Source: Symbiodinium natans
Taxonomy: Eukaryota; Sar; Dinophyceae; Suessiales; Symbiodiniaceae
Direction of reading: 5' to 3'
Assembly: GCA_905221605.1 (NCBI GenBank)
Contig: CAJNDS010000029.1
Coordinates: 62,001-126,000, forward strand
DNA length: 64,000 nucleotides
This document shows positions 2,934 to 46,491 of the stretch, in pieces. The notes under the pieces are model-generated. The model ran no database searches. It saw only the letters and a program-made list of their open reading frames with translations, and was not told where the DNA came from. Within the stretch, counting starts at the first letter, position 1. Each line of letters opens with the position of its first letter. The translations under genes and the position numbers were made by a program.

Positions 2934-4686
2934 TCAGAAGCTGGGAGCAGCGCTTGCTTCGAGGCGATCCAAACGTCGCTTCATGGCTTCAAGCTCCCTC
3001 TGCTGATCGAGGACTGTCTTCTTGTACTCGTCGTGCTCCTGACACGAAGACAGACATGCGCCCACGCCCAGCTCTGCGCTCAGCCATGCTCAGCCTACCT
3101 CAAGTACCTCAAAGCTCTGCCCCGGATTACACAACAGCTCCTTCTGCAGGTTCTGGAAGGCGAGGGTCAGCACTGCGATGAGGTCCTGAAAGATACGTAT
3201 TCTCAAGAAGGCTGGAGATGTCACCGGAGGTGATGGTAAGCCAATTGGTTAATTGGCTAACCATTCACTACTTACCAAAAAATTGAAAGTTTCAAAAAAC
3301 AAAGTATATAGACGTAGACATGCCATTAAAATACTTAACTGCATATAAGTGGGTTTGCTAATTGATTGCATGGCTCTACGTTTATGATATTACTGCCAGC
3401 TATTGGCCTTCTGATTGGAACAGTCTTCACTTGACCCAGCCACGCTTATCCAAACATTGTAATCTGCAAGGATCGAAATACTTCGCCCAACGGATCATGA
3501 GTAGTCCAGAGATACCACGAAGTAAAGCTCGGAAGAAATCCGCAACCAGTGTGAACTGTCGTAACGTTAGTAATCGGTATCAAAAAGACAAGGGCTAAAC
3601 ACTCCCCACACAGAAGTCACCCTCTCCTGGCTGGCGACTGCCTTCGTGTCGTCCCCAACTGTTCGAACCTTGGTAGAGACAGGTTGAAAACGCTCCGACA
3701 TCTTGTGAAACATTGCGTCGGCTACGCCTGTGCTATCCTGTGCTTCTCGTAACTAAGCACCAGACCAAGTTGGGGAACACTGCTTCAAGCTCTTGCGCGA
3801 TGAATCCGAACTTCAGGTACCTGCCAAGTAGCTTCATTGTTATCTTGTATCGCTTTGTGCGGCGACTTGAGCGTGGCACTTGGCTTCCGGTCCACGCTTC
3901 AGCTGGAAGGAAACTGGTCGGAGCTCACCTGGGTGGCGAAAGGCCTCTAGCCCTTGGGGCTGTGGGCAATATTTCTTGGTGTCAAGGGCCAAACCAATAT
4001 AGCTACTGTTGAAGGCCTTCCCCTCTTTATTGGCCACAAGCGAAAGATCGCTTGGGGCCGTCTGGGTTGCGCACGAAGTAGCCACTTCACCTGTTCGCCT
4101 TCACTCAGCCTCAAGATTGGCCACATTCCAACTTCATGTTGACGTGCAGGTTTGTGCAGCTATGTGCAGGTTGACATGGCTAAGTTATGCACTTGTCAGC
4201 TGGTTGCGCAGCCGAGTCAGTCTCCCATCCTCAGCAGGTAAGCAGGTGCGTGGTGCTACTGGGCGAACAGATGCTGACCCACAGAGTTAACTGGGGCTGG
4301 TACGATCACGCGCCCTGGTTGCAATCGTTTGGTACAGCGGCTGAATGTTGCGCTTCAGACGCCTGTCCTGGGTTCTCATGATTGCCCTGTCATCCTGTCC
4401 ACCTCAAGCAAGGCCACGGCGACGTGATAACTTAGCATCAGGCGGACGTTGTGATACTGGCTTCTGCTGACCAAGCACCTAGGTCTGCAAGTCTCCCCGA
4501 CAACATCAAGTGACTCCAAGTGCTCTGCTGAGCAGAGTATGCAAGGTTACACTCCTAGCACTGTGCTGCAAGCAAGTCCTAAGCTGAACTGCAGAAGGTC
4601 AGCTGAGCTTTGGGCCATGCAACGTGCCGCCACTTGCTGTCACCGTTATACCACGGTAAGTACCAGCGTAGACGTCCAGCTGAGAC
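2934..4686 (-). CDS. Peptidase S74 (intramolecular chaperone) C-terminal cassette, nine exons
   Basis: This is the C-terminal end of the giant repeat gene. Exons, 5' to 3' on minus: 4616-4686, 4444-4478, 4314-4367, 4075-4109, 3880-3928, 3766-3820, 3627-3668, 3099-3185, 2934-3038. Joined, they give about 177 residues without a stop, containing SDRRLKRNI, LRPVSFQLKRGPEAK, FGFIAQELEAVFPNLV and DLIAVLTLAFQNLQKEL, then a short helical tail ending in SF-stop. These are the hallmark blocks of Peptidase S74, which trimerises beta-helical fibres and then cleaves itself off. The catalytic Ser (codon 4444-4446) and the Lys five residues later (4353-4355) are both present. All acceptors are AG|G. Donors are GT except GC after exons 4616-4686, 4444-4478 and 4314-4367, and probably GA after 3627-3668; a GT donor 6 bp further would add Glu-Arg. 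Introns are 59-441 bp. One G shared by both sides makes some boundaries shift by one base. The frame enters from the array exon ending near 4832 through a 145-bp intron. Confidence 0.88.
3186..3626 (-). other. Largest intron of the S74 cassette, AT-rich
   Basis: A 441-bp intron between the exon ending K-A-V-A-S-Q and the exon starting D-L-I-A-V-L. It is clearly more AT-rich than its flanks. The acceptor follows a pyrimidine-rich run (TATCTTTCAG|G). The donor is best read as GA, which keeps the family's Gln-Asp-Leu junction. Confidence 0.65.
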
Positions 4687-7600
4687 CTTGCTTGATGGTA
4701 GCTTAAACGGACGACTGGGGCACCTGTGTCCTGAAGTGCAAGCAGGGGACGAGCTGATCTTGAGGTACGTGGAGTCGGAGCCATCTGAAATGAGGGAGCT
4801 CCTACAGGTCAGGGCGTTGCTTCCCTTTCACCCTGAACACAGCCGGGGTCCCTGTCCTGATTGTTCCTGCCGATGAAGTGCTTCCGAGGTTGACAAGATC
4901 CAAGGCTGGCAGAGCCGGCCCGAACCGAACACTTGAGAAAGTGGGCAGCGTGGGGCCAAGTTAAAACCTGCTTCTTGCGGGCATTGCGGAGCCCATCATT
5001 GTCAAGTCGACCGCGGAAGGGACGGGATCTAGCCGCATCGCCGCAAAAAGAGGCGCCACCGGCCCCAGCCAGGAACAGCATCTCACGGACACCGGTGGCC
5101 CAAGTGAGCTCGCATCAAACGTGAATACCAAGAAGCCTGACCGTGCTAGGCCAAAGAGGAGCACGGAGGATCCTAGGCGTTTGAAAGACCGCAATGGCGG
5201 GGCGGAGCCCAGCCTCGTGGCGTCATACGAGGAAGTCAAAAAGCCAACCTTGGAACAACCGGACAAAAACGCAAGGAAACCAGGTCGACCAGGTTGGCGC
5301 ACCGGCAGTGAGCTGCCGGTCATCATGCAATCCACGGGCGAGATCAAGAAGTCCATACAAACGAAGCTTTGCAGAGGCGAAGAAGACCCGGAGTGCGTGA
5401 AATCGAGGACCAGAACGGATGGACCCACCCTTCCCAGACCACAAATTGAGAGGCTTGACCCAGCTCTGAAGAGATTTTGGGTGGACGGCACAGGGCCATA
5501 GTTAGTCATATCCAGGGCCGATGGTGATGCCTCTGCCCTACCAATGCCAAAGGCCGAAGCTGCTGGGCCCGTGCGAGCCAAACTTCGGACGGAAGGGGCT
5601 GGCCCTAAATGCGTGGGGTCAGGCACGAGCAGCAAGAGCTCAAGGCGTCCCAGTCCTGCTGTCAGCGCCACGGAGGCCAGGTAGGCGAAAGAACGCGGTA
5701 ACAGCAGCAAGCCCGTATGTTGGCTGTCCAACACTAAGGCCGCAAAGCCGAAGCGGGCAATGGCAAAGGCAGGAAGTGCCGAGCCCAGATGGGCGGCACT
5801 GTGAGGCAGCGCTGGTGGGCCTGGATGGGAGAAGTCGAAGACCAACAAAGAAGAGCCGAGCCCAGTCAACCCGGATGACAACAGAGGCAGCCCGGACCGT
5901 GCCGGAGATCGAACTGACAGCGAGAAACCTGAGTGGGAACAGTCAAATGCCGACACTGCCAGGACAAGTCGGAACGCACCATCGGTCAGGAGCGAAGGCT
6001 CAGGTCAGGAAAAGCTTCGAGGTGACAGGGGCAAGCCCATGGCCAGGAAGTCAGGTACCAGCACCAACAAGCCCAGACATCCCAAGCCAGAGGGCGAAGC
6101 TGCGGGGCCCAGCCGTGCCAAACTTCGTGCTGGCATCGGAAAACCTGGCGTTTCCGCGTCAAAGACCGGCAGAGGGGAGCCGGGCCATGCCTGACCAGAC
6201 AAGGAAGCCGCTGAGCCAGGCCAGGCAGGGCTTTGGAGCAGCAACATCGAACCAGGACCGCTGCAATCGAAGGCAGGAAAGGAAAGGCCCAAGCAACCCA
6301 GACCAGACAAAAATGTCACTGACCCAGGCCACTCAAGGCTGTGCACCGGTAGTGGGGAGCCCATGGAAGAGCCGTCGAGCACAGAGAGGGACACTCCCAG
6401 CCTGCCTGCACCAAAGGCAGGTGGCGCGCTCCCAGGTTAACCGAAGCTGTGTGGAGGCGTCGGGGATCCGGTGTGAAGAAAGTCGAACGCCAGCAGCGGA
6501 GATCCCAACCTTCCTAGACCAAACACAAACACCAGAAATTCGACGCGCGCACGGCTGTGTAGGGGTGGAGGCAACCCGTAGTGCGCAAAGTCAGACACAA
6601 ACAGCGAAAGTCCGCAACGGCCAGGGCCAGATAAAGGAACAGCTGACCCCGTGCAAGCTGGGCTTTGTGATGGTGGCAAGGGTCCTGGATGGGTGAGGTC
6701 GAAGGCGAACAAGCTCGATCCGAGCTTTGCCACTCCAAAGACCGAAGAAGCAAGGTCAAATCGCGCAGCGCTCCGCAAGAGCAGGGTCGATCCCATTTCT
6801 GAGCAGTCTGGAGCGAGCAGGAAGAATCCTAAGCAAGCACCAGCAAATGGCGACGAGGACGGCTCGGGCCAGGCACAGGACTGCAGTGATGACATCAGCC
6901 CATAGCTTGCCATGTCGAACACAGGAAGCAGCGATCCCATGCAGGTGACCCCGAAGGCGGAGAGCGCAAAGCCCGAGCAACCGAATGATCTGGCCAGCGG
7001 CGTCAAGCCTAATTGGCAGGCGACAAAAATGAGCAGCCCGAAGTCCGCACGTGCCACTCCCATCATCGGAGACACCAACCCTGCTCAAGAAGAGCTGTGC
7101 AGGAACATTAGCGGCTCCGTGTGAAGAGAATCAGATGCTGAGACCAAGGAGCCGAATCTCGAACAGCCGGACGCCGGCAACGGCAAGCCAGCACGCGCGC
7201 AGTTCCGCAGGAAGAGGTTCGATCCCGTGGATGAGGAGTCCAGAACCAAAGGACTGAAGTCAACGCGGGACAAGCCGAAGGGGAGCAGGAGAGAGTCAGC
7301 CTTTCCGAAGTTGTGCAATGGAGGAGGGCTGCCTAGGTATGTGCAGTCAAAGGCCAGCGTCGAACTTCCTACACAAGCCATGCCAAAGGTCAAGGGAGCA
7401 GGGCCGAGACAAGCCAGCGATCGTACAAACAAAAGCAAGCCTGGAGCCGAGCTGTCAAAGGCGGGAGGCAGCAGTCCCACTTGCGACAAGCCGAATGGCG
7501 GCAACGGCAAGCCAGGTCTCCCCGTGCATTGCACAAGCGGCAGAGGACCCGGCCCAGAGCAATCCAGCGCCGGCAAGAAGAGTTCAATGCGGCCGACACC

Positions 7601-10600
7601 AAATGCAGGAGGGGAGAACCCTGACCAGGCGGGGCTTCTCAGAGGCGTAAGGCTGCCCGAATTCAAAAGATCGGACACGGGTAGCAATGACCCGAACCGT
7701 CCCTTACCAAATGAAGGCAGTGCCAGACCAAGCTGGCCTGCGCTTTGAACCAAAAGCGTTAAGCCCAAGTGGCTGCAATCAAAGGTCGAAGCTGCGACAT
7801 CCGAACGTCCCATTCCAAAGATTGGGAGTGCAAGCCCTGTCCTTGCTAAAGATCGTGCAGGAATGGGAGGCCCTGAGTGTCCAAAATCCAACGCCGGTAA
7901 CGACAAGTCGGCCCGACCTAACCCAGATAATGGTACTGCCAAGCCAGGACCAGCAAAGCTGTGGGCCGGCAGGGTGAAGTCTGGGTGACTGCGGTCAAAG
8001 GCCAGAGGGGATGCGTCGAGGCGTCCAAGCCCAAACAGCAACACGGCAGGATCCATACACGCCGGGCTGCGAGCTGGAGGAATCAATCCTGGGTGGCTGC
8101 AGTCGAAGATTGACACGGAACTGCCTGCGCGGGTGAATCCAGAGAATAGCAGCGCAGAGCCCAGACAGGCAAAGCTCCGCACAAGGGGCGACGGGCCCAG
8201 ACCGGCCAAGTCAAAGGCTGGAGCCGTGAAGTCCGCTCTCCCCATGCCAAAAGCAGATAGCGCAAGCCCAGTTCAAGAGAGCGTGTGCAGGAGGAGAGGC
8301 GAGTCGATATGCAGGAGGTCAAAGACAAGCGTAAAGAAGCCTGGACAGCCCAGGCCGAAGGCAAAGGGAGCAGACTCAGGTCGCGCGCAGGACTGCACCG
8401 GCGGTGTTGAATCGAGGGACGCGCAATCAAGTGCTGGCGAGGACAGGTCAGCCCAACCCATACCAAACAAGGACAGCACTGGTCCACAGCAGCCTGGGCT
8501 TCGAACCAGTGGCGATGACCCTGGTGAGGAGCAGTCCAAGGCCGACAAGGGCAGATCAGTTGCGGCCGCACCAGACATGGACGTTAGCGGCCCAAGTCAA
8601 GCCAAGGACCGCAGCAGCAGCAAGAAGCCCATTGAAGAACAGTCCGAAGCAGGCAAAGAAGGGCCGGCCCTGCCCAGGCCAAACAGTGAAGGCGACAAGC
8701 CGCATTGACCACAGCTTCTTGCGGAAGGCATCAGGCCTGGCGCTGAAAGGTCCAAAGCCGAGAAAGAAGGGCTGGGCTGCGTAAGGCCGAAGACAAGGGA
8801 GGCGGGGTCGAAGCAAGCAAGGGATCTGGCGGACGGGGTTAGGCCAGGTCAGGCACGTGCGTGTACCGGAGGTGAGGATCCCGGAGAAGCGCAGTCGGGC
8901 ACAAGCATTGGCAAGCCGGGCCGACCGCAAGAGAATGATGACATCGGAGATTCAGGTCGAGCCGAGCTGTGCATGGGCAGTGAGCTCCCTGTATGGCCAC
9001 AGTCAAAGGCTGAGGGCGAAAGGCCAGCGCAGTGCATCCCAAAGGTTGACGAAGCGAAGTCCGAACAGCCCATGCTTCGCACGAACATCACACTTTCCAC
9101 ACACATCATGTCCGAAAGAGACAGGGTAGAGCCCGTTTGAGAGAAGCTTTGAGGCAGCACCACGAAACCTAGGCATGCATGGTCTAAGATTAGCAGTGGT
9201 AGGGCAAATCTACTGACTCCGAAGACGGAAGACACGAAACCTGCGTGAGCAGAGCTTTGCAGAGAAATCGGCAGTTCCAGTTGAGCCATGTCAAATGTTG
9301 GAATGGTCAAGTCAAAGACTCCGATGCCAGAAATGGGTGGAGACAGACCCGTGCGCGTGTAGGAATTCACGAACAGTGAGCTGCCGAGCAAAGCTTGCTC
9401 GTCCATGTTAATTGCTGAGGCTAGGCGTGCGATGCCTGCCACGGAGATGTGCTCACCAAACCTTGTGTAGCAGCGGGTTAGCATGAAAAAGCCGAAGAGA
9501 GCAAAGTCAGGGGCTGGCAGGGAGAGTTCAGACCGGGAAATACCGAATGGTGGGGATCTCGGGCCGAGGCTGGCAAGGTTTCTTGCAAAAGGAAAGCTGC
9601 CTGAGTTCACGAAGTCGCACAAAGACATGGTGAATTCGAAACGACCAGCCCCATAGGCAGGCGACTTGAAGCCAGACCGGGCACAGTTCCGGGGGAACAT
9701 CAAGAAGTCTGCATCCATGAAGTCCAAGAGCGAAGCTGAGCATTCGAAGCAAGTCATGCCGAAGAGCGACATGATCAGGCCCGTGGTAGCTGCACCCCTC
9801 AAAAACGGTGTGGGCTCAGAGCTCGCAGAGTCGGACACCAGCAGACTCAAACCCACCCAACCAAAGCCGAAGAGCGACATGGAGAAGCCCAAGCAAGCGC
9901 AGGACCGCAAGAGCATGATTAGGCCGAGGTTCACAAAGTCACAAGCCGGCTGCGAGAATTCGGAGCGGGCTGCGCCGTAGGCCAACGACTTGGAGCCGAA
10001 GTGCCCAAGGCTCCGCGAAGACATCAACGGTCCCACCCGGACATCGTCAGGTGATGGAATTGGCGGACTCAGACGCAAGCAGCCGGATGCAAAGAGGGCG
10101 GGCTCCGTCCGACCCATGCTTCGAAGTGACAAGAAGCTTCCGATGTGTAGGCTGTTGAAGGAGGGTACTTGCAACCCCAAGCGCGCAGGGTTTCGAAGAG
10201 GAGAGGGCGATTCTGCATGCGCATAGTCGGATGAAGGCGGTGCTGAACCGCAAGTTGTGCCATATGTTAAGAATAGGAACTCGAATTTCGCCACAGCCCT
10301 GACGAAGGATGTCAACCCAAAGTTGGAGTAATCGGATGGGGGCATCGGCGGCCCAAACTTTCCAAACCCGTATATGAAGAGAGAAAAGCCAGGGCAACCG
10401 CATTTCCTCGAAGGGGTGGGTGAGCCCAGCAACAGGAAGTCAAGGACAAACAGGACAGATCCTAAGCGGCCCAGGCTGTGCAAGAACAGAAGGAAGCCTA
10501 GATTTGTGAAGTCGTGGGCTGAAGTCCAGTCACCCATACAAGTTCGGCCGAAGGGAAGCGGCGTTGGGCCAAGGCACGCGAGGCTACGTGACAACGACAG

Positions 10601-13600
10601 CAACCCTACTTGTGCATAGTCGACAATTGGCAGGACGAACTCCGATTAGACAGAGCTCCGGGCCAGCATGGCAAAGCCCAGAAGTGCATAGTCAAGCAGA
10701 GGTGGCGGGAGACCCGTCCAAGTGCAGCCGAAAGTCGAAAACACAGAGCCGGCACGTGCAAAGGCGTGCGTGGGAATCAACGGGTCGGTGTGGCCAGAAT
10801 CCAATACCAACACGGGCGATCCTGGGCGAGAAAAGGACCGCGTTGGCATCCCCGAGCCCACGTGGCAGTGCTCCAAAGTAAGCACGGAAGCCTCAAGGTG
10901 CGCAAGACTGTGGAGTAAGGGCGCCAGTCCCAATTGGAGGGGGTCAGATGCTGACACAAGCAAGCCGTAGCGAGTGCAACCTGTCACAGATGAAGCCAAG
11001 CCCGTTCTGACAAACTTTCGGACCGGTGCTGAGCTGTCAACCTGTGCAAGATCTAGCAAGGAAGCCGTGAGTTCTAAGCAGATGAGGCTATGTGCAAACA
11101 TCGCGGATGCCATGATCATAAAGTCCAAGAGCAGCATCGTGAAGCCAAGGCACACCAAGGATCTCACAGGCATGACCAGGCCAAGGAATGCATCATCCGA
11201 GGTAAAAATGGACAAGTCCAATCTGCTGAATCCCAAGGCAAGGAGAGGCAGCTCTGAACGCCCGGAGTTGCGCAAGGAAGCGGACGGGTCCGGAACCAGA
11301 AAATCCAACACAAGCAGTACGGAATCTAGTCGTGCACGACTGCGCAAGGGAGTCACGGACTCGGAGTGCGAAGAATCCGGCAGCGGCACGGAAGAGCTTA
11401 GACGCACCGTGCCCAGAATGGATAGCATCAAGCCGAGTTGCCCAAAGCTGTGCATCGAAATTGCCAAGCCAAGCGAAGCGAAGTCTGGGGGCAGCGAGGA
11501 GAGCTCCGTCCAGGTCATTCCAAACACTGAAAATGGCAAGTCAAACCACGCAAATCCCCGCGACAGCACAGCAGAGCCTGTCTCGGCAAAATCCAAGGCA
11601 GAGGCCGAGAAGCCCAGGCACACGGAAGATCTCAAAAGCGGCGGCGAGCTCAAGGAAACATAATCCAGCACGGGGGAAGGTGGCGCGAGACGAAAGGATG
11701 ACCTGGCTGGGACAGGGAAGCCAACTTGAATGTGGTCCAACACAGGCAGGGACAGAGCCATCCAGACCAACCCACAGATTGGCAGCGTTGGTCCACAACA
11801 GCCGAGGTTGTGCAGCAACGGAGACAAGTCGATCTGCGAAGGATCCATGATCGAAGGCACAAACCCCACCCGCATGGAAGATCGCGACAGCGCAGCTGAG
11901 CCTGCCTGGACGAAGTCCAACAAAGGTGCTGCCAAGCCAATCCTGGCCCTGCCAAATGGCAAGGGAGCCGAACCCGCTCTGCAGGAACTTTGCAATGATG
12001 ATGGGAAGCCCAGCAGCAAGTAGTCAGGGGCCGGTGACGTGGATTCCGGGCAGCCGTAACTTCGCAGCGAAGCCAACAGGCCAAGAAACGCAAAGTCTAA
12101 AGCAAGTGAGGAGAAGCCCGTCCTAGCCATGCTGCAGGCTGAGATCGCCGGCCCAGGACTGGCGCAGCTTCGGAGGGGCAATGCACTCGCCACGTGTACA
12201 CCCGCCATTACTGAAGCAGCGCTTTCGAGTCAGGAGAGGCTTTGAACAAATAACACCGGCTCGAGATGTGCGTAATCCAAAGGCAGCATAGGTGGGTCGG
12301 AGCATGAACAGCCAGAGGACAAAGCAGCTAAGCCAAAACGGCTGGCGCTCCTTACAGGTGGAGTGGGGGCCGGCTGCAAGAGGTCGGACATTAGCAGCAG
12401 AGGTCCGGGTCGTGCGTGGCTGTGTGAGGGCGGCATCGGGCCCGAGTTCGTAGAATCCGGCACCAGCAGCAATGGGCTTGAGCGAGACATGCCAGAGGTT
12501 GGCAGCGGAAACCCACATCGACCCGAGGACCTCAGGGGCAGAGAGCTGCCCGGGTGCCCAAAGTCAGAGGCTGGCAACAAAAAGTCCAGTCGGCCAACCG
12601 AAAAGGGGAACGCAGGCGGACCCGTGTGAGCAAAGGACCGCGCCAACATCGCAGGCCCAGCATGGACGAAGTCCGTGAGAAGCAATGCCAACCCAGCGCG
12701 GCTACCACCAGATGCGGAGAGTGACAGCCCAAAACATTTGAAGGACCGCACAGAAGGCATACTTCCCAAGGCAAGGAAATCGGAGAGGGGCGCGGCAAGG
12801 CCTGACCGGACAAGGCTGTGCACAAACGTAGATGAGGCCGCCGAGATGAAGTCGAGCACCGATGGCACTAGACCCGAGCGGGCAAAGCTGCGTGTAGAGG
12901 GTGCTGGCCCTGGTTCACACACATCCAGCACCAAAAGGATGAGACCAGGATTGGCGATACCGACGGTTGACGAGAGCGAATCGGATCTTGCTGACTGTCT
13001 CAAGGGCAGAGGAGGCTCGGACTGTGTAGGGTCTGGAGCTGGCAACAGTGATCCAGTTCACCCTAGGCCACATGCCAACAAAGTGGAGCCAGGCTGACCA
13101 GAGTTACGCAAAGGGACAGAAGAGCCGGGCACCGCAAAATCAGCCGAGAGCAACACGAATCCAAGGCAAGCATGAGATTGCAAGGAAGGAAAACTGTCGA
13201 AGTGGCTGTAGTCCAGAACGGACGGTGAAAAAGCCAAGCGGGTGACACCAGACAGCAAAAACAATAAGTCCGGCCTGGCCGAGCTACGTGGCAACAAAGG
13301 AGAGCCTGGTTCCGCGGAGTCGGGCACGGATGGAAGGCTTCCAAGCCAAAGGCAGCTTTGCAAGGAAAGAGCAAAACCAGACATGGCAAAACCCAGCACC
13401 AGCACCGATGGTTCCGAGCAAGCCACACCGACTGTAAGCAAACTGGACCCCAGGTGGCCACACATCCTTGCCGGCATCAGGAGGCCTATTGATATAAGAT
13501 CCGGGAGAGGCGCCGCCAGGTCCGAGCGAGAGAGGGACCTCGCTGGCAGGGCAGATCCAAGGTCCGTAAGGTCAGGAATCAACATTAAGGGTGCTGTCCG

Positions 13601-33505: not shown

Positions 33506-36500
33506 GTTAGCATAGTCCAGGGTGAGCAGTGGCAGCCCGAGTCAGCTCACGCCATAGATCAGCGGAGAGCTGCCCATGCAAGCATGGCTTTGAAGCGGGG
33601 GCGTGGGCTCGATATGAACAAGGTCGAGCACAGGGAGAGGCAAGTCAAGCTGTGTGCAGCCGTAGGCCAATGAAGTCAGGCCAGGCCGAAGATGGCTCTG
33701 GAGAAAAGACGGCAGATCCAGGTGCACAGAGTCCGACACAGAAGGCAGTGGGCCTATTCGTGCTGTTCCCCACGCAGGCAGGAGCAACCCGAGCCACACA
33801 AAGCCCTGCAAGGACAGAAGCAGGTCAGTTCCCACAAGGTCAGGTGTTGGAGGCAAGGAGCCAGTGCACGCCAGCCCATAGGGCAACAAGGACAAACCCA
33901 TGTGGACAAAGCTTCGCATGGGAGGAGTTGAGCCAAGGTGAGCGAAATCTGGGATCAACAGTGTGAAACCAGGCCATGCCAGGCCGTACACGGAGAGGCT
34001 CTTGCCAGTTCAACAGAAACCCCTTGCCAACAAAAACGAGCCCATGTTCACAAGGTCCAGTGCGAGTAGCCTGTCGCCGAGGTGTGCAAGACCGTAGGGA
34101 AGCATCTGGTTGCCCAAGCGTGCAAAGCTTTGCGAGGACATCGAGGAGCCTGGGCGGATGAGGTCCAAGGCCAAGGGAGAGAAGCCAGGCCGCGTCACCC
34201 CATAGGCAAGCAACAGAGGGTCAAGATGCATGAGCCCTCTGGGAGACGTTGCTGAGCCAATGTTCAGGTAATCAAGGGTCGGCGGGCTAAAGCCCAGTTT
34301 GGACAAGCCATAAACTGAAGGTGATAAGCCCATTCTCACAAAACTCCTCAGCAAAGGCACGGGGCCGAAGCTAATGAAGTCCAAGGCAGACATGGAAGGC
34401 TCAAGGAGACTGACGCCCACAACAAATAACAAAAAGCCCGGTCTCATGAACGAGTGCAGTGGCAGCAGGGATCCAGCCTGGGCAAAGTCAGGTGATGGCG
34501 GTGGCGAGTCGAGATGCACGCAGCCATAAGCCAGAGGCAAAGGGTCAAGTCACAAGAGGCTGCGCAACAGCATCGTAAAACCGGAGTGGGCGGAGTCCGG
34601 AGTTGGCAGCGAGGGACCCAGGCAGGTCATGCCCCATGCAGATGAAGGAGGATCTGACCTCGCGAGGCTTTGCACAAGAAAGGGTGGCTCCGGCTGCGCG
34701 AAGTCCGGGAGCAAAAGTAGCGGTCCGAGGCGGGACATTCCGAAAGCCAAGAGTGAAGAGCCCAAGCGCAGGAGGCTTTGTAAGAGCAGCAGGCTGCCTA
34801 AATGAACAAAGTCTAGGAGAAGTGACAAGCTGTCAAGCTGCACCATGCCGAAGAGAAGAAGCGAGCTGCCGAGCTGCAGGCAGCTGCGAAGCGGCGGAGG
34901 TGGACCTGCATTTATAAGGTCCAACACAAGTAGTGGGAGCTCCAAGCAGCTGACACCCCACAGAGACGTCAAAGAGTCAAGGCGTGTGAAACTGTGTGTT
35001 GGCAGGGACAATCCAACGTTAATGTGGTCCAGGGTTGGCATCAACAGGCCCAGGGTCATGAGCCCGTAAGCAAGAAGCGCCGAGCCCGGACGCATGAAGC
35101 TTCTCAGGGGCAACAGCAAGTCTGCATTTCCGAAGTCCAAAGGTGGCGGCATGGAGCCGAGCCACATAATGCCCCAAGCAAGCATCAGAAGCCCCGGACG
35201 TACGGAACTTCGAGTCGAAGTCGGGGGGTCAAGGTTCACAGGGTCCAGAACCGACAGGGTCAGCTCCGAGCGCGCAAGCCCGTACGCCGAGCATGAAGGC
35301 CCCAGCTGAAGGAGGGTTCTCAGAAGTGCAAAGAAACCAAACTGAACATAATCTAAGGCCGAGGGAGGGAAGCCCGGTCTGCAAACACCATAGGCAGACG
35401 TGGCAGATCCGGGGCACAAAAGGCTCCTGAGGGGCAACAGCAGTCCTGGTTGCACAGAATCAGGCACCAAGGGAGAAGACTCAGGACAGCCGATTCCGTA
35501 AGCCGGAGGCAAACTCCCCGGCCGTGCGAAGCCTCGGATAGACACCAACGAGGCCGTGACAGCACTGCCTCGAACAGAAAGTAAGAAGCCCAGAATCGTC
35601 TCCTTCCATGCCAAAAGCGTGCTTCCAGGTCTCGTAAGCCCTTGCAAGGGGGAAGTCAAGCCCAAACTGACAGGGTCAAGCACAGACGGAAAGAGTCCCA
35701 GCTGCGACATTCCGTAGGCAGACATGGCAAGTCCCAAGTAAATGTGGCTTCGCGAGGATGGGGTGCTTCCTAGACTGATGGAGTCAAGCACTGGCAGCAA
35801 GCTGCCCAGCCGAACCATGCCGTAGGCAAGGAGCGCACTGCCACAATGAATGAAGGAACGGAGCGGCGGGGACAAGCCGAGATGCGCAAGGTCCAGGGGA
35901 AGCATCGGCGGCTCCAAGCGCGCCATGCCAGACACCGGCGTCAGAAATCCTAACCAGACGGAGCCATGCAGAGAAGCCATGAAGCCCACGTTAAAGAAGT
36001 CAAGGACCGACAGTGGGAGGTCTAAGCAGGTCACGCCGAAAGTCAAAAGGGAAAAGCCGAGTTAGGCAAAGCTCCTGGGAGGCAAAGACAAGCTCACGGA
36101 GACAAGATCAGGAATCGACGGCATCGGCCCAAACCGGGACAGGCCATACACGAGCAGCGCAGGATCAAGTCTCAAGTAGCTCCGGAGCAAGACGCTGCTC
36201 CCTGGGTGGATGAGATCCAGCACCAGAAGCATGGACTCGGGTCAAGCCACTCCAGATGATGACGTCAAGCTGTCTGACCAGCCAAGAGTCTGCAGAGACA
36301 AAATGAGGCCTGGGTGCAAGAAGTCCAGGATCAGCAAAGGCAGGCCCGAGCGCGACATGCCGTAGAGCGGCGGAGGAGGTCCGATCCAGAAGTGCCCGTG
36401 CAAGAGCGGCAGGAGCCCCGAGTGGCAAAAGTCCAAGACCAAGGGCGGCTCGTCGGTTCGTGTGATGCCAGAGGCAGGCAAAACGGGCCCCAACCGACTG

Positions 36501-39500
36501 TGGCCACGGAGAGGCATCGTAGAGCCCATGTGGACAAAGTCCAGAGCTGAAGCTGATGGCCCCAGACGCGAAATTCCGTACACTGGCGCCAAAGACCCGA
36601 GGCAGCTGAGGCTGTGTGTGGGCAGAGATGGGTCCGTATGCACAAAGTCAAGGACTAGCAGGAGTAAGCCCGAGCAGGAAACTCCATAAGCGAACGGGGA
36701 ACTGCCAAGGCACGCAACGCCCCTTGGCGATGAGGGCAAGCCCAGATGCAGAGAGTCCAGCACAAAGAATGGGCTTTCCATCCATGTCATGCCATAAAGC
36801 AAGGTCGTGAAGCCCGGACACGCATGGCCTCGGGGCAATAAAGAGCTTCCAAAAGTGCAGGGGTCCAGAATTGGAAGGAAGAGGTCAGCACAAAACATTC
36901 CGTATGGCAGCGTGGGACTGTCTGAGTAAGCGGAGCTCCGGGGCAGCAACGAAAAGTCCGTGTGCACAAAGTCTGGTGCAGACAGCAGCAGATCAGGACA
37001 CGATAGGCCATAAGGCAGCAAACTCGAGTCTGGGCATGTCGGGCCCCGCAAGAGAAGGGACGGCCCTGAATGCAAGGAGTCAGGCACTGATGAAGACAGG
37101 TCGAGCCACACGACCCCAAAGGCAAGCATCGAGGAGCCCATGCAGATGAAAGAGTGGAGGGGCATCGGAAAGCCAAGGTTCACCAGGTCCAGGACTGGCA
37201 AGGGTAGCCCTGTCTGCGTAACGCCGTAGGCCAGCAAGGGAAGCTCCGAGCGCGCGAGTGACCTCGGTGGTAAGAGCAAACCCATGTGCACAAAGTCAGG
37301 CGCGGAGATCGAGAAGCCTGGCCTAGAAACTCCATAGACCGGCATCAAGAAACCCAAGCGTGCAAGACTTCGGAGCAACGGGCTGCTGCCCATGAGAACA
37401 GGATCCAGCACCAGCAAAGGTGGTCCGAGGCACGTGAAGCCAAAGACTGGAACCGATAGGCCAAGACGGGCAGGGCCTCGAAGGAGCAGCATGAGGCCCA
37501 AGTTCATGCAGTCAAGAGTTGACGTCGTGCTGCCGAAGCGAAAGCACTTGGAGACGGAAGTCGCTGGGTCCGCACAGAGGAAGGACCGCAAGAACAGGAA
37601 GCTGCCAATTCCAGCAGGGTCAAGAGGCGGCAAGAAGAGGTCCGGTCGGACCATTCCGTAAGCTGGGAGCGATGGGCCGAAGCAAGCAGGGCTCTGCGGA
37701 GGCAACAGGCTGTCAAGGTGGATGGAGTCTAAGGCCGGCATGGATGGACCAAGACCGGAGAAGCCATAGGCGAAGGTGGAGAAGCCCATTCAGCAAGGGC
37801 TTTGTGGCGGCATGGTGCTGCCAGTGGTCACAAAGTCCAGAAGTGGTATAGCAAAGCCTGGCCTGACCATGCTGTAAGCCGACAGCAACTCACCCAACCG
37901 AGCAAAGCAAGTGAGAAAGAGAGAGCTTCCGGGATGAACAAAGTCAGAGGCAAGCAGGGGTGGGCCCAAGCAAGTCATGCCAAAAGCAGGCAGCATCAGG
38001 TCAGGCTTGATGCAGCTGTGCGGCGGCGTCGAAGGCTCCAGCTGAACAAAATCCGGCACCGACATGCTGGGACCCAAGCAAGTCATGCCAAAGGCGGAAA
38101 GCAACAAGTCCGTGCAGCATGGGCTCTGCGGGGAAAGCAGCGGTCCTGAGTGCAAGAAGTCCGACACGGGGAGAGGCAGCTCTGGTCAGGTACAACCGGA
38201 CACTGACATGGACAGGCCCGGACGACATGAGCTGTGTAGGGATGGCGGGAATCCCAAATGGAAGGAATCCGATGCCGAAAGCGATGGATCTAAGCAGGTC
38301 ATACCAGACGCTGATAGCAAGAAGCCAGATCAGGCGAGACCTTGGAGCAAAGGCAGCGGCCCAACGTTAACGTGATCCAAAAGCAGTAGTGAAAGGTCAG
38401 GCCTGCTTAGGCCATAAGCCGACACGAAGGACCCCGGACACAAGAGAGTTTTGGGTGGAGTGGACGAGCCCAGGTGCAAGTGGTCCAGAATCAGCATTGA
38501 GGGGCCTGACCAGGTCAGACCGTAAGCTGGCATCGAAGGCTCCATGCATAAGTGGCTGTGCGGAGACATGCTCAGGTCCAGATGGATGAAGTCAGGCAAG
38601 AGTGGAAGAGAGCCCAGGCGCGTCATGCCAAAGGCAGACGATAGCAGCCCTGATTGGGCAAGCCCCCTCAGCGGCAAGAGCAGGCCCAGGCTAATGAGGT
38701 CCAACATTAGCAAAAAGGGACCAGGCCTCACGATCCCATAGGCAAGCGTTGAGAGGTCGAAACATGCAAGTGCCCGGAGCGGCAAGGAGAAATCCAGGTG
38801 TGCGGGGTCAGGGGCTGGCAGCAGAAACCCCAAGCGCACCATCCCGTACACGGAAGGTGAGCTCTCTGGCTAAGCAGAGGAGTGCAGCAGAGAGGAGGAG
38901 CCAAAGGTTGCAGGGTCCGATGCCAGCAGAGGCAGCCCGAGAAGAGAGCAGCCGGAAGCAAGCAAGAAAGAGCCTGTGCAAGCAGACGCTCGAAGCGAAG
39001 TCAAACTGCCGGAGGACACGTGGTCTAGAACAAACAAGGAAAGGTCCAGCCTTGAACAGCCATAGACGAGAAGTGAAAGTCCTGGCCACACAAGGCCTTT
39101 GACCAACAGCAGCAAGCCGATGTGAACAAAGTCCAGGGCCAGGGACGAAGGATCGGGGCGAGAAAGGCCGTATGCCAGAAGTGCGCTTCCCGTTCAGCAG
39201 AAAGCTTTCAAAAACATTGAGCTGCCAGAGCTGATAAAGTCCAGAACCAACAAGAAACTTTCGAGCTGGGTCAGGCCATACGCCGGGAGAGACGGATCTG
39301 AACACGCGGGGCTCCGGAGTGGTGTCGTCAGGCCCAGGTTCACATGGTCCAAAACCAAAGGCGAGAAATCGAGACAGGACAGGCCGTACACAAACAGAGC
39401 ACTTCCGATTCACACGTGGCTGCGTGACAGCGCCGCCGAGCCAGCAGCACAGAAGTCAAGCAGGAAAAGCGAAGATTCAGGGCATGACATGCCGTATATC

Positions 39501-42500
39501 AGCACGGTGGGCTCTGAGCGCGCAAGGCTCCTCAAAGGCAGCATGGAACCTATCAAGACGGAGTCCGAGGTAAGCATGGGAAGGCCGGGGCAAGAGATCC
39601 CATAGACCGGCGCACTCGAACCGATACGCACAAGGCCCTTCAAGAATGGTGCGCTCCCGAATGTCACATGGTCCGACACAAACAAGGGTGAGTCCAGTCG
39701 ACTCACGCCGTAAAGGAGCAGAATGGGTTCTGAGCACATGAAGCCATGCAGCAAGGACGAGCTGTCAATAGTCACAGGATCAAGGGCAAACAACAAAAAC
39801 GCCGGCCTTGCTGTGCCGTACACGAAGAGAGTGAGGCCTAGCCAGGCGAAGCTTTGCAAAGGCGCTGAAGGGCCCATGTGCACGAAGTCCAATGCAAACA
39901 ACAAGCTTTCCAAGCAACTGAAGCCATAAGTAGGGGCCGAGAAGCCCATCCTCGTGCAACTTCGCAGCAGTGCTGGTGAGCCGACCGTTATGTGGTCGAG
40001 AGCTGGCATCGGAGGGCCCGATCAAACAATGCCAAACATGGGTGCCAAAGGCTCCGATCAAGCGAGGCTACGCAAGGGCAGCACGCTCCCAGGGTGAATG
40101 AAGTCTGGTACTGAACAGCTCGGACCGAGTCGGAAGCTTCCGTACACCGGCGTGGCGCTGCCAGGCTGCGCAGGTGCTCGCGAAGGCATGGTGGGGTCTG
40201 GAACCACGTGGTCCAGCACGGATGGTGGTGGGCCGGTTTTGCTGATTCCATAGAGAAGAGTCAACGGGCCGGGACAAGCAAAGCTTTGAAGGAGCAGCAG
40301 AAGGTCGATCTGTACAAAGTCCAAGGTCAAAGTCGATGGGTCCAAACGGGCCAAGCCGTAGGCAGATGGGGGGCTTCCTAACCTTGCAAAGCTTCGAAGT
40401 GGCGTCGCCGATGCAGAACGGCAGCTGTCAAAGGCCAGGGGTATGAGGCCAAAGCAAACGTAAGAACGTGCAAGCAACAGTGAACCTGGTGAGACATAAT
40501 CCAGCACCAACAGTGGGAAATCTGGTCAAGCCAGCCCATATGCAGACGTGAGTGAGCCTAAACAGCCAGGAGTTCGAAGGGATATTGGCAGGCCCAGGTG
40601 TAGAAGGTCCGGAGTGGACAGCAAGAAGCCCAGCCACGTCATGCCATAAGTTGGGAGAGCTGGACCAAGGCAAGCGAAGCTGCTTGTGGGCATGAAGCTT
40701 TCGAAGTGAACAAGATTCAGCACGGACGTCACGCTGTCAAGGCGCACAAGCCCATAGGCAGGCATGGCTGGGCCGTATCATGACAAGCCACGCGAGAGTG
40801 TGGCCGAGCCCAATGTCACGAAGTCGGGAGCGAACAGCGCGGACTCCAACCATGCCATGCCATAAGGAGGCGACAAGAAGTCCGCTCTCGAGGAGGTTCG
40901 CAGGGACAGGAATGATCCCGGATGCAAGTAGTCTGAGGCCGAAAGAGAGGACCCAAGTCAGGCCATTCCGTAGGCTGACAAAGGAAAACCCGGCCGTGAG
41001 AGACTGTGCAGTAACAGAGCGGAGCCAAGAGTCACATGGTCGAGCGCAAGCAAGAAGGAGTCTAAGCGAGCCATGGAGTATGCCAACAACACAGACCCAA
41101 GCTGGGCGAAGCTCCTCAAGAACATCGTCAAGCCAACATGAATAAGGTCCAAAGCAAGCAACATCAGCTCAAGACGTGTAGCCCCATACGTGGGCAATGG
41201 CAATTCCGGCCGTGCATAGCTGCGTGACGGAAGCAAGGATCCCATGTGCAAGAAATCCAAGGTTGGAAGCAAGAATCCCAATCACTGCATGCCATAGGCA
41301 AGCAGCGAAGACCCCAAATATCCAAAGCCGCGGAGCGAGGCCGGTGAAGCCATGTGCACATAGTCCAAGGCTGGCATCATCAGCCCTGAGCAAGACAACC
41401 CAAAGACGGAAGTAAAGAATTCCATGCAGCCCATGCCATGCAGTAGCAAGAAGCTGCCAGAAGTCACGTGGTCCGGCATGGGCGGCAAGGACCCCAAACA
41501 AACCGTCCCGTAAGTCGAAAGTGCCAGGCCAAGGCACGCAAACTGCCTCAAGGATGGTGCGCTGCCCAATGACACAAGATCCAGAGCAAGCAAGAAAAGC
41601 CCAAGTCTCGCCACGCCGAACGCCAGCGAGATTGGCCCGATGCATACAAAAGTTCTTGGAAACATAAGTGGTCCAAGGCTCACAAAATCCAAGATTGGCG
41701 GCAAAGGCTCGGGTCGGCCTACTCCATACACAAGCATCACAAGCTCAAACCGAACAAGCCCATGCAACAGCAAAGGTAGGTCAGATTGGATGTGATCCAA
41801 AGCTGGCAAAGGAAGGTCTGGCTGCGTGGTGCCATAGACCAGCGTAGCAGATCCCAGGCGCACGTAAGAACGCAACAGTACGGCCGAGCCGGGGGTCACG
41901 TGATCTGGCACTGACAAGCTGAAGCCCAGCCGGATGTTCGCATAAGCCAGCATCAAGCTGCCTGGGCGCACAAAGCTTTGAGGGGGCAGCAGAAGGCCTG
42001 AGTTCACAGAGTCCGATACCAGCATCAGGGATCCAAGCCTTGTCAACCCAGATACAAAGAGTGGGAATTCGATCTTCACGAGGCTGTGGAGAGGCGCTGG
42101 GCTACCAGAGCTCATCCAATCCAGCACAGGAGGCATCAGTCCTGAGCGCATCGCCCCGTAAAGTGGTGGAGGCAGCCCAAGTCGCCCGCAAGATCTGAGC
42201 AAGGCTGGCAATTCTAATGTAATGAGGTCCGAGGCTGGCAGGGTCGGATCAAGCCTAGCAATCCCATACACGAAAGGCGCGCTTCCGCATCACACGTAGC
42301 TCTTTGGAGATGGGGCAGGATCAGGGTGTAGGGAATCCAGCACCAGCAAAGGCAATCCAAGACGGCTCATGCCAAAGGCCAACAGAGGCAAATCAACGCA
42401 CAAGAAGCCATGCGAGGAAAGCATAAACCCCATGTTTCCATGGTCTGATGACAGCGGAAGCAAGCCTGGTCATGACACACCGTATGCTGGCATAACACTG

Positions 42501-45500
42501 CCGAGCTGAACGTGGCCTTGAAGCAACAAGGAAAAGTCCATCTGGGTAAGATCTGGAGCTAACGGCAGAGAACCCGGTCAGGCGACGCCATACGCTGGCA
42601 ACATGCTACCAGTTTGTGTGGGGCCACGCAAAAGGAGCGATGAGCCAGGAGTCACGGACTGCGGTACAGGAAGTGACGGCCCGAGCCAAGCGACGCCATA
42701 GACGAGCAGCACACTCCCTGACCAAGCGTGGCTTTGCATGGGTGGTGTTGAACCTGGGACGACCATGTCGGGAGCAAGCAGTGAAGGCCCCAGACATGCC
42801 ATTCCGTAGAGGAAAAGCGACAGCTCCAAGCAGGCCATGCTGCGCAGCAGCAGGAACGAGGCGAGGCTCACAAGGTCCGGCGCTGGCATCGAGAATCCGA
42901 GCCGTGCCAGGCCATAAGTCGAGGCTGAGGATCCAGGCCAGGCAAAGCTCTGGGGCAGCAACGTGGGCTCAGTTTGTATGGAGTCAGGGGCTGGCAGGGT
43001 CAGGTCAAGTCTAGACATGCCGGAGAGCAGCGCGCTGGAGCCGATGTGGCAGGGACCTCGGGGAGGCATTGTGAGCCCCGAGTGAATGTAGTCCAACACT
43101 GGCAATAACGACTCCAATCGCGACATGCCAGAAGCCAAGGGTGTGGAGCCTAAGCACAGAGATCCACGCAAGGGCATCATCAAGTCCGAATGCACGGAGT
43201 CCAGCGCCAAGAGCGTGAGGCCCAGTCAAGCCATGCCATAGGCGAATGTCATGGGGCCAACATGCAAGAGCGTGCGCAGAAGCATCAGGAAGCCCAGCTG
43301 CAGTATGTCAGGAACTGGCAAGAAGGAGTCTGGACATGTCAGCCCATAAACCAACAAAGAGAACTCAAGTTGAACGAAGCTCCTGGGAGGCAAGGTGGGT
43401 TCAGCGTGGATGCGGTCCAGTGCTGGCAGCATGGAGCCCAGCCTGCAGACACCATAGACGGGTATGACAAGGCCAGGTCAGGTGGGCCCCTGCAAAAGCA
43501 GCGTACTACCTGCAAAGCAGCTGTCAAGGATGAACAGAAGGCTCCCGTAGCGTGTCATGCCGGAGGCTGGGGTGGCCAACCCAAGACAGACGCGGCTTCG
43601 AGGAGACGAAGAAGAATCCGTGTTGATGTGGTCGAGGACAAGTATGGAGAGGCCCAAGCGCGTCATGCCGAACGCCGGCGAAGCGAAGCCGATTCACAGA
43701 AGGCTTCTCAAGAACAGAGGCGGCTCCATCATCGCAAAGTCAATCAAGAATGGTGAAGCGCCAGATCGCGTTGCTCCGAAGGTCGAGGAGGTGGAGTCCA
43801 TCTGGCACAGGCTGCGCATAGGCATCGAGGGGTCTAAGTGCAGCAAGTCCAGGAGAGGCAAAAGACTACCAAAGCGAGCTCGTCCAACGGGTGAGAAGGT
43901 GAAACCTGCCCTGGTAAAACCTCGAGCAGACATGGACGGTGCCGTGAGGGCGTAATCCAATGCAGGCATAAGCAAACCGAATCACGACATGCCACACACA
44001 GACAGCATGAAGCCCACCCGGCAGTGGCTACGGATGGAGGATGTCAGCTCTAGGTGAAAGAAGTCTGAGGCCAACAGAAAGGATCCTGAACAGGCCATGC
44101 CATAAGCAAACGTTGGCAAACCGAAGCAAGACCACGCTCGCAGCAAAAGTGTGAGCCCGGGATGCAAGTAGTCTGGTGCTGATAAGAATGGGTCAAGCCG
44201 GCACATGCCATAAGCTGACAACAAGGAATCCAGGCAAGCAAAGCCACGCAAGAGCAGCAAAACCTCTGCTTGGATGAAGTCAAGTGGAAGCATTGCGGAG
44301 CCGAGCCGCAGCAAACCGTACACAAGCGAGAGTGACCCGAAACAAGAGCACGTCTGCACCAGCATCGCTGAGCCCGCGTGTACACAATCTAGAACAAGCA
44401 TGCCAAAGCCCAGGCAGCTCAAGCCGAACGTAGAGGGCAATGAACCTGTGCACGCGGGGCTCCGCGAGGGAAGCAAGCTACCAAGCGCGCAAAGGTCAAG
44501 AACAGGCATGACTGGGCCAAAACAAACAAGTCCGTAGGCCAGCGATGAACTTCCGAGCCGTGAAAAGCTCTGTACGCTAATCGCGCTGCCGGATTCGGCC
44601 TTGTCACGCGCAGGGAGGCAGCTGCCCATCCTCACCTCAGAGAAGACTAGCAATGAGGAGCCCAGTTGTTGGAGGCCTCTCAACAGCATGGCAAGGCCCA
44701 TGTGAACAAAGTCCAAGGCAGGCAACAAGAAGTCCAAAGTCACCATGCCGTAGGCGAACAAGGCCGAACCAAGTCAGACCAGATTGTGCAACGGAACAAG
44801 CGACCCGAAGGTAGCATAATCAGGAAGCGAAAGGGAAGGACCTAGGCAGACTACACCATAAAGAAACACTGCAGAGCCTGCTCTCGAGAAGCCTCGCAAG
44901 GGCATGGGGCTGCCAGGTGTCACGGAATCTGGGGCGGGCAAGGACAAGCTCAGCCAAGCCATGCCATAAGCTAGCAGCAGCGGCCCGGAGCATGCAAAGG
45001 ATTGAATTGGTGGAGTTGGGCCTGGATGAACGAAATCTGAGGTTGGCATGGAAGATCCAAGCCATGCCATGCCGTAGGTCAAAGGTGCACTGCCCACCCT
45101 GGAGAAGCTGCACAAAGAGAAGGAAGGTCCCAACTGGACAAAATCCGGGGCGAAAGGCAGGAAGCCAAGGCTAGCCATTCCATATACTGGCATGGGGAAG
45201 CCGGGGCAACCAAGGCTGCGCAAGAGCAGCGCAGGACCTGAATGTACAAGATCGGGCGCGAGCAGCAAAGGGCCAAGCCGCTGCATGCCGTAGACAAGCG
45301 AGAACAAGCCGAAGCATGAAAATCCACGCAGGAACGGCAGCGATCCCGTGTGGACAAAATCTGATGCGAGCAGGAGTGAGCCAAAACACTGTACCCCAAA
45401 TGCAGAAAACAACAGTTCCACACAGCACATGCTTTGAGGCAACAAGGATGAAGCCGTCTGCGTGTGGTCCAGAACTGGCAGCAGCGGCCCCAAGCAAGTC

Positions 45501-45640
45501 ATGCCATAGATCAGCAGCGTGCTGCCTAATTATGCAGAACCTTGCAAGGACGAAGCCAACTCCACCACTGCAAAGTCCGGAGCTAGCAAAGGCGCGCCCG
45601 GTCACGTGACGCCGTAGGTCGGCGACAAGCTTCCCATTTA

Positions 45641-46192
45641 TGCAAAGCTGCACGTCAGGGATGAGCTGCCGGAGTGGCCAAAGTCCAGCGCCGGTGGTGA
45701 CGAACCAAGCCGAGCGAAGTCGTAGACAGATGTGGTGGAGCCGTGGCGGGCAAAGTTTGCAACAGAGAGCGAGCTTGCTAAGGTTGCAAAGTCCTTAGCG
45801 GACATGAAGGAACCGAAGCAAATGATTCCAAACACAGATGACGTGCTACCTAGCCTTGCGAAGCTCGCAACCAAGAGGGCACTGCCAAAATAGCTCTTGC
45901 CCTCCACGGAGGTTGATTCGCCAAAACGGACGAAGTCTTTAACGGACAGGCCTTTGCCGAAGTCAACTTGGTCTGCCACCGAGAGGGTGCTGCCGAAGCA
46001 GACCCTTGAATATACGGAGAGTATGCTGCCCAGGACAGTTGCGTCGAACACTGACAAGCTGCTGCCAACCCTTACATCGGACAAGACAGACAGCGTGCTG
46101 CCAAGCACTGCTGTGTCAAAGACCGAGAGGGTTGAGCCGATCTGCACTTGGTCAATGACGCTAAGGGACATGTTGAAGAAGGCCTCCTGCTC
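45641..46192 (-). CDS. 5' exon of the giant gene with conserved GSxLSV units
   Basis: An AG|G acceptor at 46193-46194 opens a frame starting E-Q-E-A-F-F-N-M-S-L-S-V; the Met codon is 46169-46171. About 12 units of 12 residues follow, most with G-S-x-L-S-V and a variable tail (F-D-T-A-V, L-S-D-V-R, A-D-Q-V-D, K-D-F-V-R). They lack the strict A-B-C rotation and the Pro-rich positions of the main array. They are free of stops until the TAA at 45638, where the A-B-C array takes over in the same register. The block therefore looks like a maintained N-terminal solenoid. The frame is open for 28 codons above the Met, so translation could start there or in an upstream exon. Confidence 0.6.
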
Positions 46193-46491
46193 CTGACACG
46201 CGACTCCGCTAACACAGCGTATTCTATAATGGCAACAAAGGGTAGCCGTGGTCAATGTAGGGAAAATTCATTGCTGGCCTGGGTGATGACCATGTACGGA
46301 GTCTGTCCGCCAAATCTTTCAGAGAAGATCACCTTATGCAAGCCAGGGGAAACTGCGCACAGCATCTTCAAGGCGTGAATTCTCCAAATCTTGCTATGTA
46401 GGCTCACATGTCGCAGGCTTCCGAGAACATGTGACCAGAGCACTCTACCTGAGCAGGGAACTATGTCCATGGGCCTCTGAACGGTCTCCAC
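46193..46491 (-). other. Possible upstream intron and exon of the giant gene
   Basis: A GC donor at 46277-46278 after a Gln codon would give an 86-bp intron (46193-46278) joining a frame that ends F-G-G-Q-T-P-Y-M-V-I-T-Q to the E-Q-E-A-F-F exon in phase. The upstream frame has Met codons further up. No domain is recognisable, so this is only a candidate for the 5' end. Confidence 0.25.

Follow-up and report, generated by a model that had tools for sequence, protein, structure and literature searches.

The S74 domain of phage tail fibres and of MYRF trimerises and then cleaves itself, and the mitochondrial cryptogenes of trypanosomes and diplonemids depend mainly on insertion or deletion of U, directed by guide RNAs, within an organelle. 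These mitochondrial cryptogenes are named in Sloan 2025 (PMC12710240), which describes restorative editing as organellar and nuclear editing as mostly diversifying, perhaps as the off-target cost in a large transcriptome is too high. For dinoflagellates, the literature gives 0.4–6.9% of bases edited in plastid genes (PMC4079212; 55% of the edits are A>G, and C>U and U>C make up 13% apiece), 69,953 putative nuclear editing sites in Prorocentrum cordatum (PMC11453091, PMC10666404) and, in Symbiodinium microadriaticum (Liew et al. 2017, PMC5357065), 3,304 nuclear sites of all 12 types, or about one per kb across edited genes. In the S. microadriaticum study, polymerase chain reaction and Sanger checks of five genes showed about 20 edits in each 300-bp amplicon; changes of Pro to Leu and of Pro to Ser were frequent, and one example of Cys>Arg was given. 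The DYW candidates of Symbiodiniaceae are questioned in PMC12787238. The locus described here lies in a 64,000-nucleotide stretch of the Symbiodinium natans genome (contig CAJNDS010000029.1, positions 62,001 to 126,000, hereafter the window) and joins an array of twelve-codon repeats to an S74 cap. Judged from sequence, it is likely a working gene of the nucleus, encoding a predicted giant fibre with an S74 cap, and its mRNA would be densely edited before translation.

The predicted editing resembles that of S. microadriaticum, as PMC5357065 describes it, in acting on nuclear transcripts of the same genus, with transitions in excess of transversions and with clustered sites. In contrast, the S. 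microadriaticum editing is partial, condition-dependent and read as diversifying, whereas the window would undergo 11.9 changes per 100 nucleotides, directed and restoring one pattern. Similarly, the richness in transitions and the restoration of conserved residues are shared with dinoflagellate organelle editing (PMC4079212); unlike the organelle genes, the window gene is nuclear and spliced, C>U and U>C together would exceed A>G, the sites follow one repeat register and far more of them would fall on each message. The gene would be unreadable from DNA without RNA editing, as are the trypanosome and diplonemid cryptogenes, from which it differs in that base conversion is predicted, and in the nucleus. 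As in S74 (chaperone of endosialidase) fibres, a C-terminal S74 domain follows a repetitive stalk and there is a coiled-coil-like tail, whereas the stalk of about 13,700 residues, the 12-residue repeat in a 36-residue order and the eukaryotic gene with introns set the window apart from known S74 fibres. Searches of the open-licence literature for S74 proteins and for dense restorative nuclear editing in dinoflagellates or Symbiodinium found no paper whose title, abstract opening or consulted passages describe such a system.

The array occupies 4853..46180 on the minus strand, where the autocorrelation displays a 36-nucleotide period with a 108-nucleotide higher order (0.443 at 108); a generic tandem-repeat search fails to detect it. 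The first-pass annotation had claimed about 1,148 repeats, and the array itself stands, with the count lowered to 1,144–1,145 twelve-codon units in register from 46180 to about 4860 plus one unit ending at 4853. Three unit types alternate in the order Y-L-R, with the clean forms RLGSSLSVYGMA, RLGSSLSVLDFV and HLGSSLSLRSFA. The reading frame is maintained across 41 kb, and a single register break was noted in the full array read-out, where a unit near 10,220 is one codon short. Within this frame 61 in-frame stops are found (50 TGA, 8 TAA and 3 TAG), every one of them at unit codon 0. The first 14 units (45677..46180, minus strand), to whose start the homologues P0157 and P0160 align, are almost unscrambled, with 13 rule-counted changes in total; the density of changes rises from about unit 14 and reaches about 4.3 per unit. 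These clean units may mark the point where editing can begin. The array of P0160 (Durusdinium) is likewise clean at its start.

The clean repeat of the homologues reads R-LGSSLSV (R-L-G-S-S/T/A-L-S-V...), and the differences of the window array from it are nearly all transitions, confined to fixed sites; the codons of the unit are written c0, c1 and so on, with the base given after a point. At c6, 1,144 units encode Leu (379), Pro (359), Ser (300), Phe (105) or Asn (1); by codon, 1,140 of 1,145 units carry YYN, four AGY and one AAC, and none encodes Ala, Thr, Val, Ile or Met. At c3 the codons are YYN in 979 of the 1,145 units, AGY in 141, GGY in one and AAY in one. Leu, Pro or Phe is read at these Ser sites in 737 (c3) and 843 (c6) of 1,144 units, and AGY codons for Ser are guarded, while TCN codons for Ser are free to drift to those for Leu, Pro or Phe. 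Past the first 14 units, which were left aside here and in the Gly, Arg and Asp counts below, transitions restore 4,023 of the 4,093 off-target c1–c7 codons of 1,131 units, whereas A/C–G/T swaps restore 723 and A/T–C/G swaps 824, so that either class of transversion recovers only 18–20%. Swaps were made at codon positions 1 and 2, and the target was the set of residues common in 135 units from 11 transcriptome-labelled proteins; these units were picked with a filter on c2, c3 and c6, and a looser scoring that allows Ser, Leu, Pro, Phe or Ala at c6 gives the same pattern.

The tolerance tracks the site rather than the amino acid. In the same 329 units the Gly codon of c2 begins with GG in 235 and GA in 88, while that of c9 begins with GG in 291 and GA in none (Fisher 5e-28). 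Sites that are more than 90% purine or pyrimidine and yet split between the two members of the class are c0.2, c1.2, c2.2, c4.2, c5.2, c6.1, c6.2, c7.2 and c9.1, the last of which was rejected as an editing site because the position mixes unit types with Asp, Gly or Ser. In 372 units following L units, the c8 Arg codon starts with CG (155), CA (129), AG (75), AA (11), TG (1) or another pair (1), and c0 of the non-R units chiefly with TG (274), CG (224), CA (93), AG (90) or TA (22). Thus A>G would be available at both c8 and c0, and U>C only at c0. Codon 0 of L-type units is CAR in 22 cases and CAY in four, against 32 and 36 in Y-type units, an imbalance that hints at a sequence context for A>G. 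All four letters are present in the third bases of c2 and c6, and a base-calling artefact was rejected on this ground and because the effect is confined to particular sites at the first and second codon positions. A DNA satellite without a coding role is rejected by the codon-position structure, and a change of genetic code as the sole cause of the stops by the presence of three stop types together with scrambled Ser, Gly and Leu sites.

Homologous proteins fall into clean and scrambled forms. Eleven transcriptome-labelled homologues score 108–144 bits against the clean consensus, and ten of them were scored per unit: nine carry Ser or Ala at c6 throughout their scored units, and the tenth does so in 93%; P0013 and P0070 (UniRef, Alexandrium) we take to be derived from transcriptomes. 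A set of 39 genome or long-contig proteins, made up of 36 proteins (33 on contigs of at least 9 kb and three EukProt gene models) together with P0017, P0021 and P0067, scores 24–72 bits, and the 38 of these that have four or more scored units all show the scrambling seen in the window, with Leu, Pro or Phe at 49–83% of c6 codons. The scrambled proteins occur in Symbiodinium, Durusdinium, Breviolum and Effrenium records.

The homologue P0006 has a clean repeat, and its 284 residues are encoded by contigs no longer than 1,016 bases, whereas the window equivalent spans about 2.2 kb with introns. P0006 is therefore very likely a complementary DNA (cDNA), being too compact to be unspliced. Its S74 part is identical at 188 of 190 residues to P0017 from the Symbiodinium sp. 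CCMP2592 genome, whose array is scrambled. Against the array end of the window, P0006 is identical at 55 of 89 residues, and transitions account for 26 of the 34 differences (21 C>U, 4 U>C, 2 A>G and no G>A), compared with 33% under a single-step null. Application of one fixed rule to the array raises the identity to P0006 from 45/76 to 66/76, a consistency check, as the rule was partly derived from such products.

The fixed rule calls for 4,893 changes in the window, or 11.9 per 100 nucleotides, comprising 2,873 C>U, 1,675 U>C and 345 A>G, proportions that A-to-I editing of the ADAR type alone does not produce. The editing load is put at about 4,000–4,900 sites per message, because about 0.9 rule-counted changes per unit are baseline, the level seen in the first 14 units. 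Relative to the protein repeat of the homologues, the array has C in place of U or U in place of C at c1.2, c3.1, c3.2, c4.2, c5.2, c6.1, c6.2, c7.2 and c0.1 and A in place of G at c2.2, c0.2 and c8.2, and adjacent sites require opposite changes. A machinery that reads the repeat register would install the correct base. Editing of this kind would turn Pro, Leu and Phe into Ser, Asp and Glu into Gly, Pro, Ser, Thr and Ala into Leu, Ile or Val, and Cys, Trp and stop codons into Arg. Mutations that can be reversed in the message would be neutral and would drift towards saturation, and irreversible ones (transversions, G for A, frameshifts) would be purged. With a shared register, a single guide or a small number of trans-acting factors might suffice for sites in the thousands.

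The same pattern is found elsewhere in the genome. Searches of the assembly (759 Mb, 2,543 contigs) with P0006 and with the clean consensus, in which the best 137–150 candidates were scored, revealed no clean array among those candidates; the best of them for P0006 is the array end of the window itself, 60% identical and with an internal TAA, and the best for the clean consensus reaches 81.9 bits. A second contig (C1369:15001-215000) carries two genes built in the same way and placed head to tail, whose arrays measure about 87 kb and at least 95 kb. The first gene has N-terminal exons at about 214.5 kb, its array at 211–124 kb and S74 exons at 118.9–118.1 kb, and the second has N-terminal exons at about 115.4 kb, its array running from 110 kb as far as the sequence was examined, which was to 15 kb. 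Tiling with c3 and c6 masked, which gave no tile run on the opposite strand, placed 4,136 units (2,127 in the first gene and 2,009 in the examined part of the second) with the same scrambling as the window. Transitions restore 14,651 of 15,000 off-target c1–c7 codons on this contig and the transversion classes 2,778 and 2,849, and 143 of 146 stops fall at codon 0. Sixteen long gaps (at least 400 bases) separate tiles, two of them holding the gene border and a 6.8-kb unread stretch. The rule counts 9,004 changes in the first gene and 8,427 in the part examined of the second. Further repeat matches were seen at C2066:374-441 kb (plus strand), C1446:42-61 kb (minus strand) and C1793:199-201 kb (minus strand). 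Taken as a family, the window gene and the two genes on C1369 would probably be nuclear cryptogenes with about 4,000–9,000 conversions per message, in three directions set by the phase within a 12-codon repeat. A single editor or guide set able to read the register would then change about 12% of the array part of messages up to tens of kilobases long. Across the three loci this comes to about 22,000 sites, and the repeat would solve the off-target problem that is held to keep restorative editing out of the nucleus.

Several observations weigh against the editing explanation. The lists of clean transcriptome and scrambled genome proteins stem from different queries and form a supportive contrast rather than a census, and the genome searches for a clean array score the best candidates only. 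Clean or near-clean repeats occur on contigs of 6–17 kb (P0036, P0045, P0111 and P0113), and some genomes may encode the clean repeat directly. The cDNA status of P0006 rests on its compactness, its source stating no sample type, and the comparison of DNA with product was made across related species rather than on a DNA and RNA pair from one strain. Eight of the 34 P0006 differences are not transitions; these likely arose by divergence between the species. On C1369, purine-pyrimidine-N codons are found at c3 in 588 and at c6 in 168 of 4,136 units, the c3 impurity partly matching the Ala found at c3 in homologues. Scans with PF14432 and PF02137 for an editing enzyme returned no match, the controls being equally silent.

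Among the rival explanations, a pseudogene decaying under a transition-biased, context-bound mutator, with the clean transcripts coming from other, clean genes, fares best and is still very unlikely. It would explain the dominance of transitions, and the clean repeats on some of the 6–17 kb contigs are in its favour. However, no frameshift was noted in 41 kb, and of 99 short gaps on C1369, 97 have lengths divisible by three. The Asp at c9 of L units is retained in 271 of 274 cases, in units chosen by their neighbours, as typing by c8 and c9 would make this count circular. The same scrambling affects three genes of this genome as well as the proteins of the four genera named above, no clean locus is found among the best-scored candidates of the genome, and between species the sites switch within Ser, Leu, Pro and Phe in 33 of 35 pairs.

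Translation of the array as written, by a fibre that tolerates Ser/Leu/Pro/Phe and Gly/Asp/Glu and with stops read through or decoded, is highly improbable. The frame is indeed open except at codon 0, and the residues at c1–c7 remain neighbours in the codon table. However, a tolerance of Ser, Leu, Pro and Phe that bars Ala, Thr, Val, Ile and Met at c6 and yet keeps AGY fits no side-chain property; Gly varies at c2 yet is fixed at c9, all three stop codon types are present and the transcriptome-labelled homologues are clean. A clean message obtained without base conversion, from trans-joined short clean pieces or from DNA rewritten at another life stage, would account for clean products from scrambled DNA, and dinoflagellates do trans-splice a leader (PMC12787238), but it is the least probable of the three, since no clean copy is found among the best-scored candidates of the assembly and the unit-specific residues of the clean homologue track the scrambled array in order before and after correction, so that the product is read from such an array and not built of standard pieces.

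Returning to the gene as a whole, the array and the S74 cap likely form one gene of about 46 kb, from about 49,274 to 2,934 on the minus strand; that both parts lie on the same strand agrees with the first-pass annotation. Exon limits are the ends of tblastn pieces and not splice sites, and all exons given here are on the minus strand. The likely first exon (49164..49274), recognised by eye from the translation, has a signal-peptide-like start and ends VHAW, to be compared with VRAW of P0157. It is followed by N-terminal exons located by tblastn at 48876..48953 (VLVSREGEVTLLGPVDI, P0157 and P0160), 48746..48808 (DPSFNQDAKLTFRSKGARQWA, P0157) and 46264..46332 (VIFSERFGGQTPYMVITQASNEF, P0157). 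Tandem repeats of 83 and 176 bp at 46893–47275 are likely intronic, as they lie between two N-terminal exons.

Beyond the array, about ten 3' pieces extend to 2934 in alignments with P0029, among them 4903–4853 (the array end), 4403–4302 and 3188–2946. A single intron from 4832 to 4686 had been proposed, and P0029 contradicts it by placing an extra exon, SSLISDGSDSTYLKISSS, at 4747..4809 inside it. The next exon, SQLDVYAGTYRGITVTASGGTLHG, lies at 4614..4685, followed by an S74 exon that starts with DRRLKRN (4302..4367, 5' limit approximate; PF13884 and P0029), a short S74-linker exon piece (4198..4227), the exon piece LSEGEQVKWLLR (4073..4111), the S74 exons ELRPVSFQLKRGPEAK (3879..3926) and YLKFGFIAQELEAVFPNLV (3763..3822, 3' limit approximate) and the exon piece VRTVGDDTKAVASQ (3618..3668, 3' limit approximate), all by tblastn of P0029. 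The last two exon pieces, QDLIAVLTLAFQNLQKE and EHDEYKKT...ASAAPSF, have an intron between them and occupy 2934..3188, with the TGA at 2936–2934. The exon carrying the Ser before DRRLK (TTSDRRLK in homologues) was not located in the window by tblastn pieces or translation.

The S74 identity of these exons, suggested in the first-pass annotation, is borne out by a profile search, in which hand-trimmed and hand-joined exon pieces match Peptidase_S74 (PF13884) with 45.8 bits over a cut-off of 22, and the exon 3763..3822 alone matches with 24.3 bits. The closest homologues to the S74 pieces of the window are P0006 and P0029, both of which match Symbiodinium sp. CCMP2592, and P0001, P0006, P0013 and other homologues hold the repeat and S74 within one open frame. 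The first-pass annotation had proposed a giant S74-capped repeat fibre. This fibre is supported by homologues that hold both repeat and S74, by the twofold recurrence of the architecture on C1369 and by the fold predicted for the clean repeat, whereas translation of the array as it stands in the DNA is unlikely because of the 61 stops and the Ser sites that read Leu, Pro or Phe. P0006 also has distant S74-like counterparts on two IMG/VR viral contigs (L049 and L050). The clean repeat is predicted, with moderate confidence, to form a beta-solenoid; the chains would take up this fold once corrected, and their S74 domains would trimerise and then cleave themselves off. The AlphaFold model of P0001 (alignment A1) is of low confidence, with a pLDDT of about 50 in the array, and its best Foldseek matches, LpxD and LpxA at E 0.03 or worse, were not used. 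NCBIfam LpxA/LpxD matches occur in three of four clean proteins, the best having an E of 5.5e-7 yet 28.8 bits against a cut-off of 242.5; a left-handed hexapeptide beta-helix of the LpxA/LpxD type thus stays below the cut-off, and no such Pfam match is found among eight proteins. A sequence search of the PDB returned nothing below E 0.19 for the S74 part or 0.23 for P0096.

Upstream of the gene, a 1,718-aa open frame at 58845–63998 on the minus strand matches RVT_2 (PF07727, E 5.4e-16) and is likely a piece of a Copia-type retroelement. Five telomere-like TTTAGGG copies lie at 127–161, away from the contig end, as the window begins at contig position 62,001.

If the editing explanation is true, the need of a nuclear gene for restorative edits in such numbers, in the thousands, would clearly depart from the organelle rule, and the repeat, by offering one target register, would suggest why restorative editing can exist in the nucleus. 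Each message would provide thousands of natural site variants for finding the dinoflagellate editing machinery, U>C included, and the arrays would offer a direct test of constructive neutral evolution. For loci of this kind, the gene models in the genomes of coral symbionts would be misread, and the finding may bear on edits already published for these algae.

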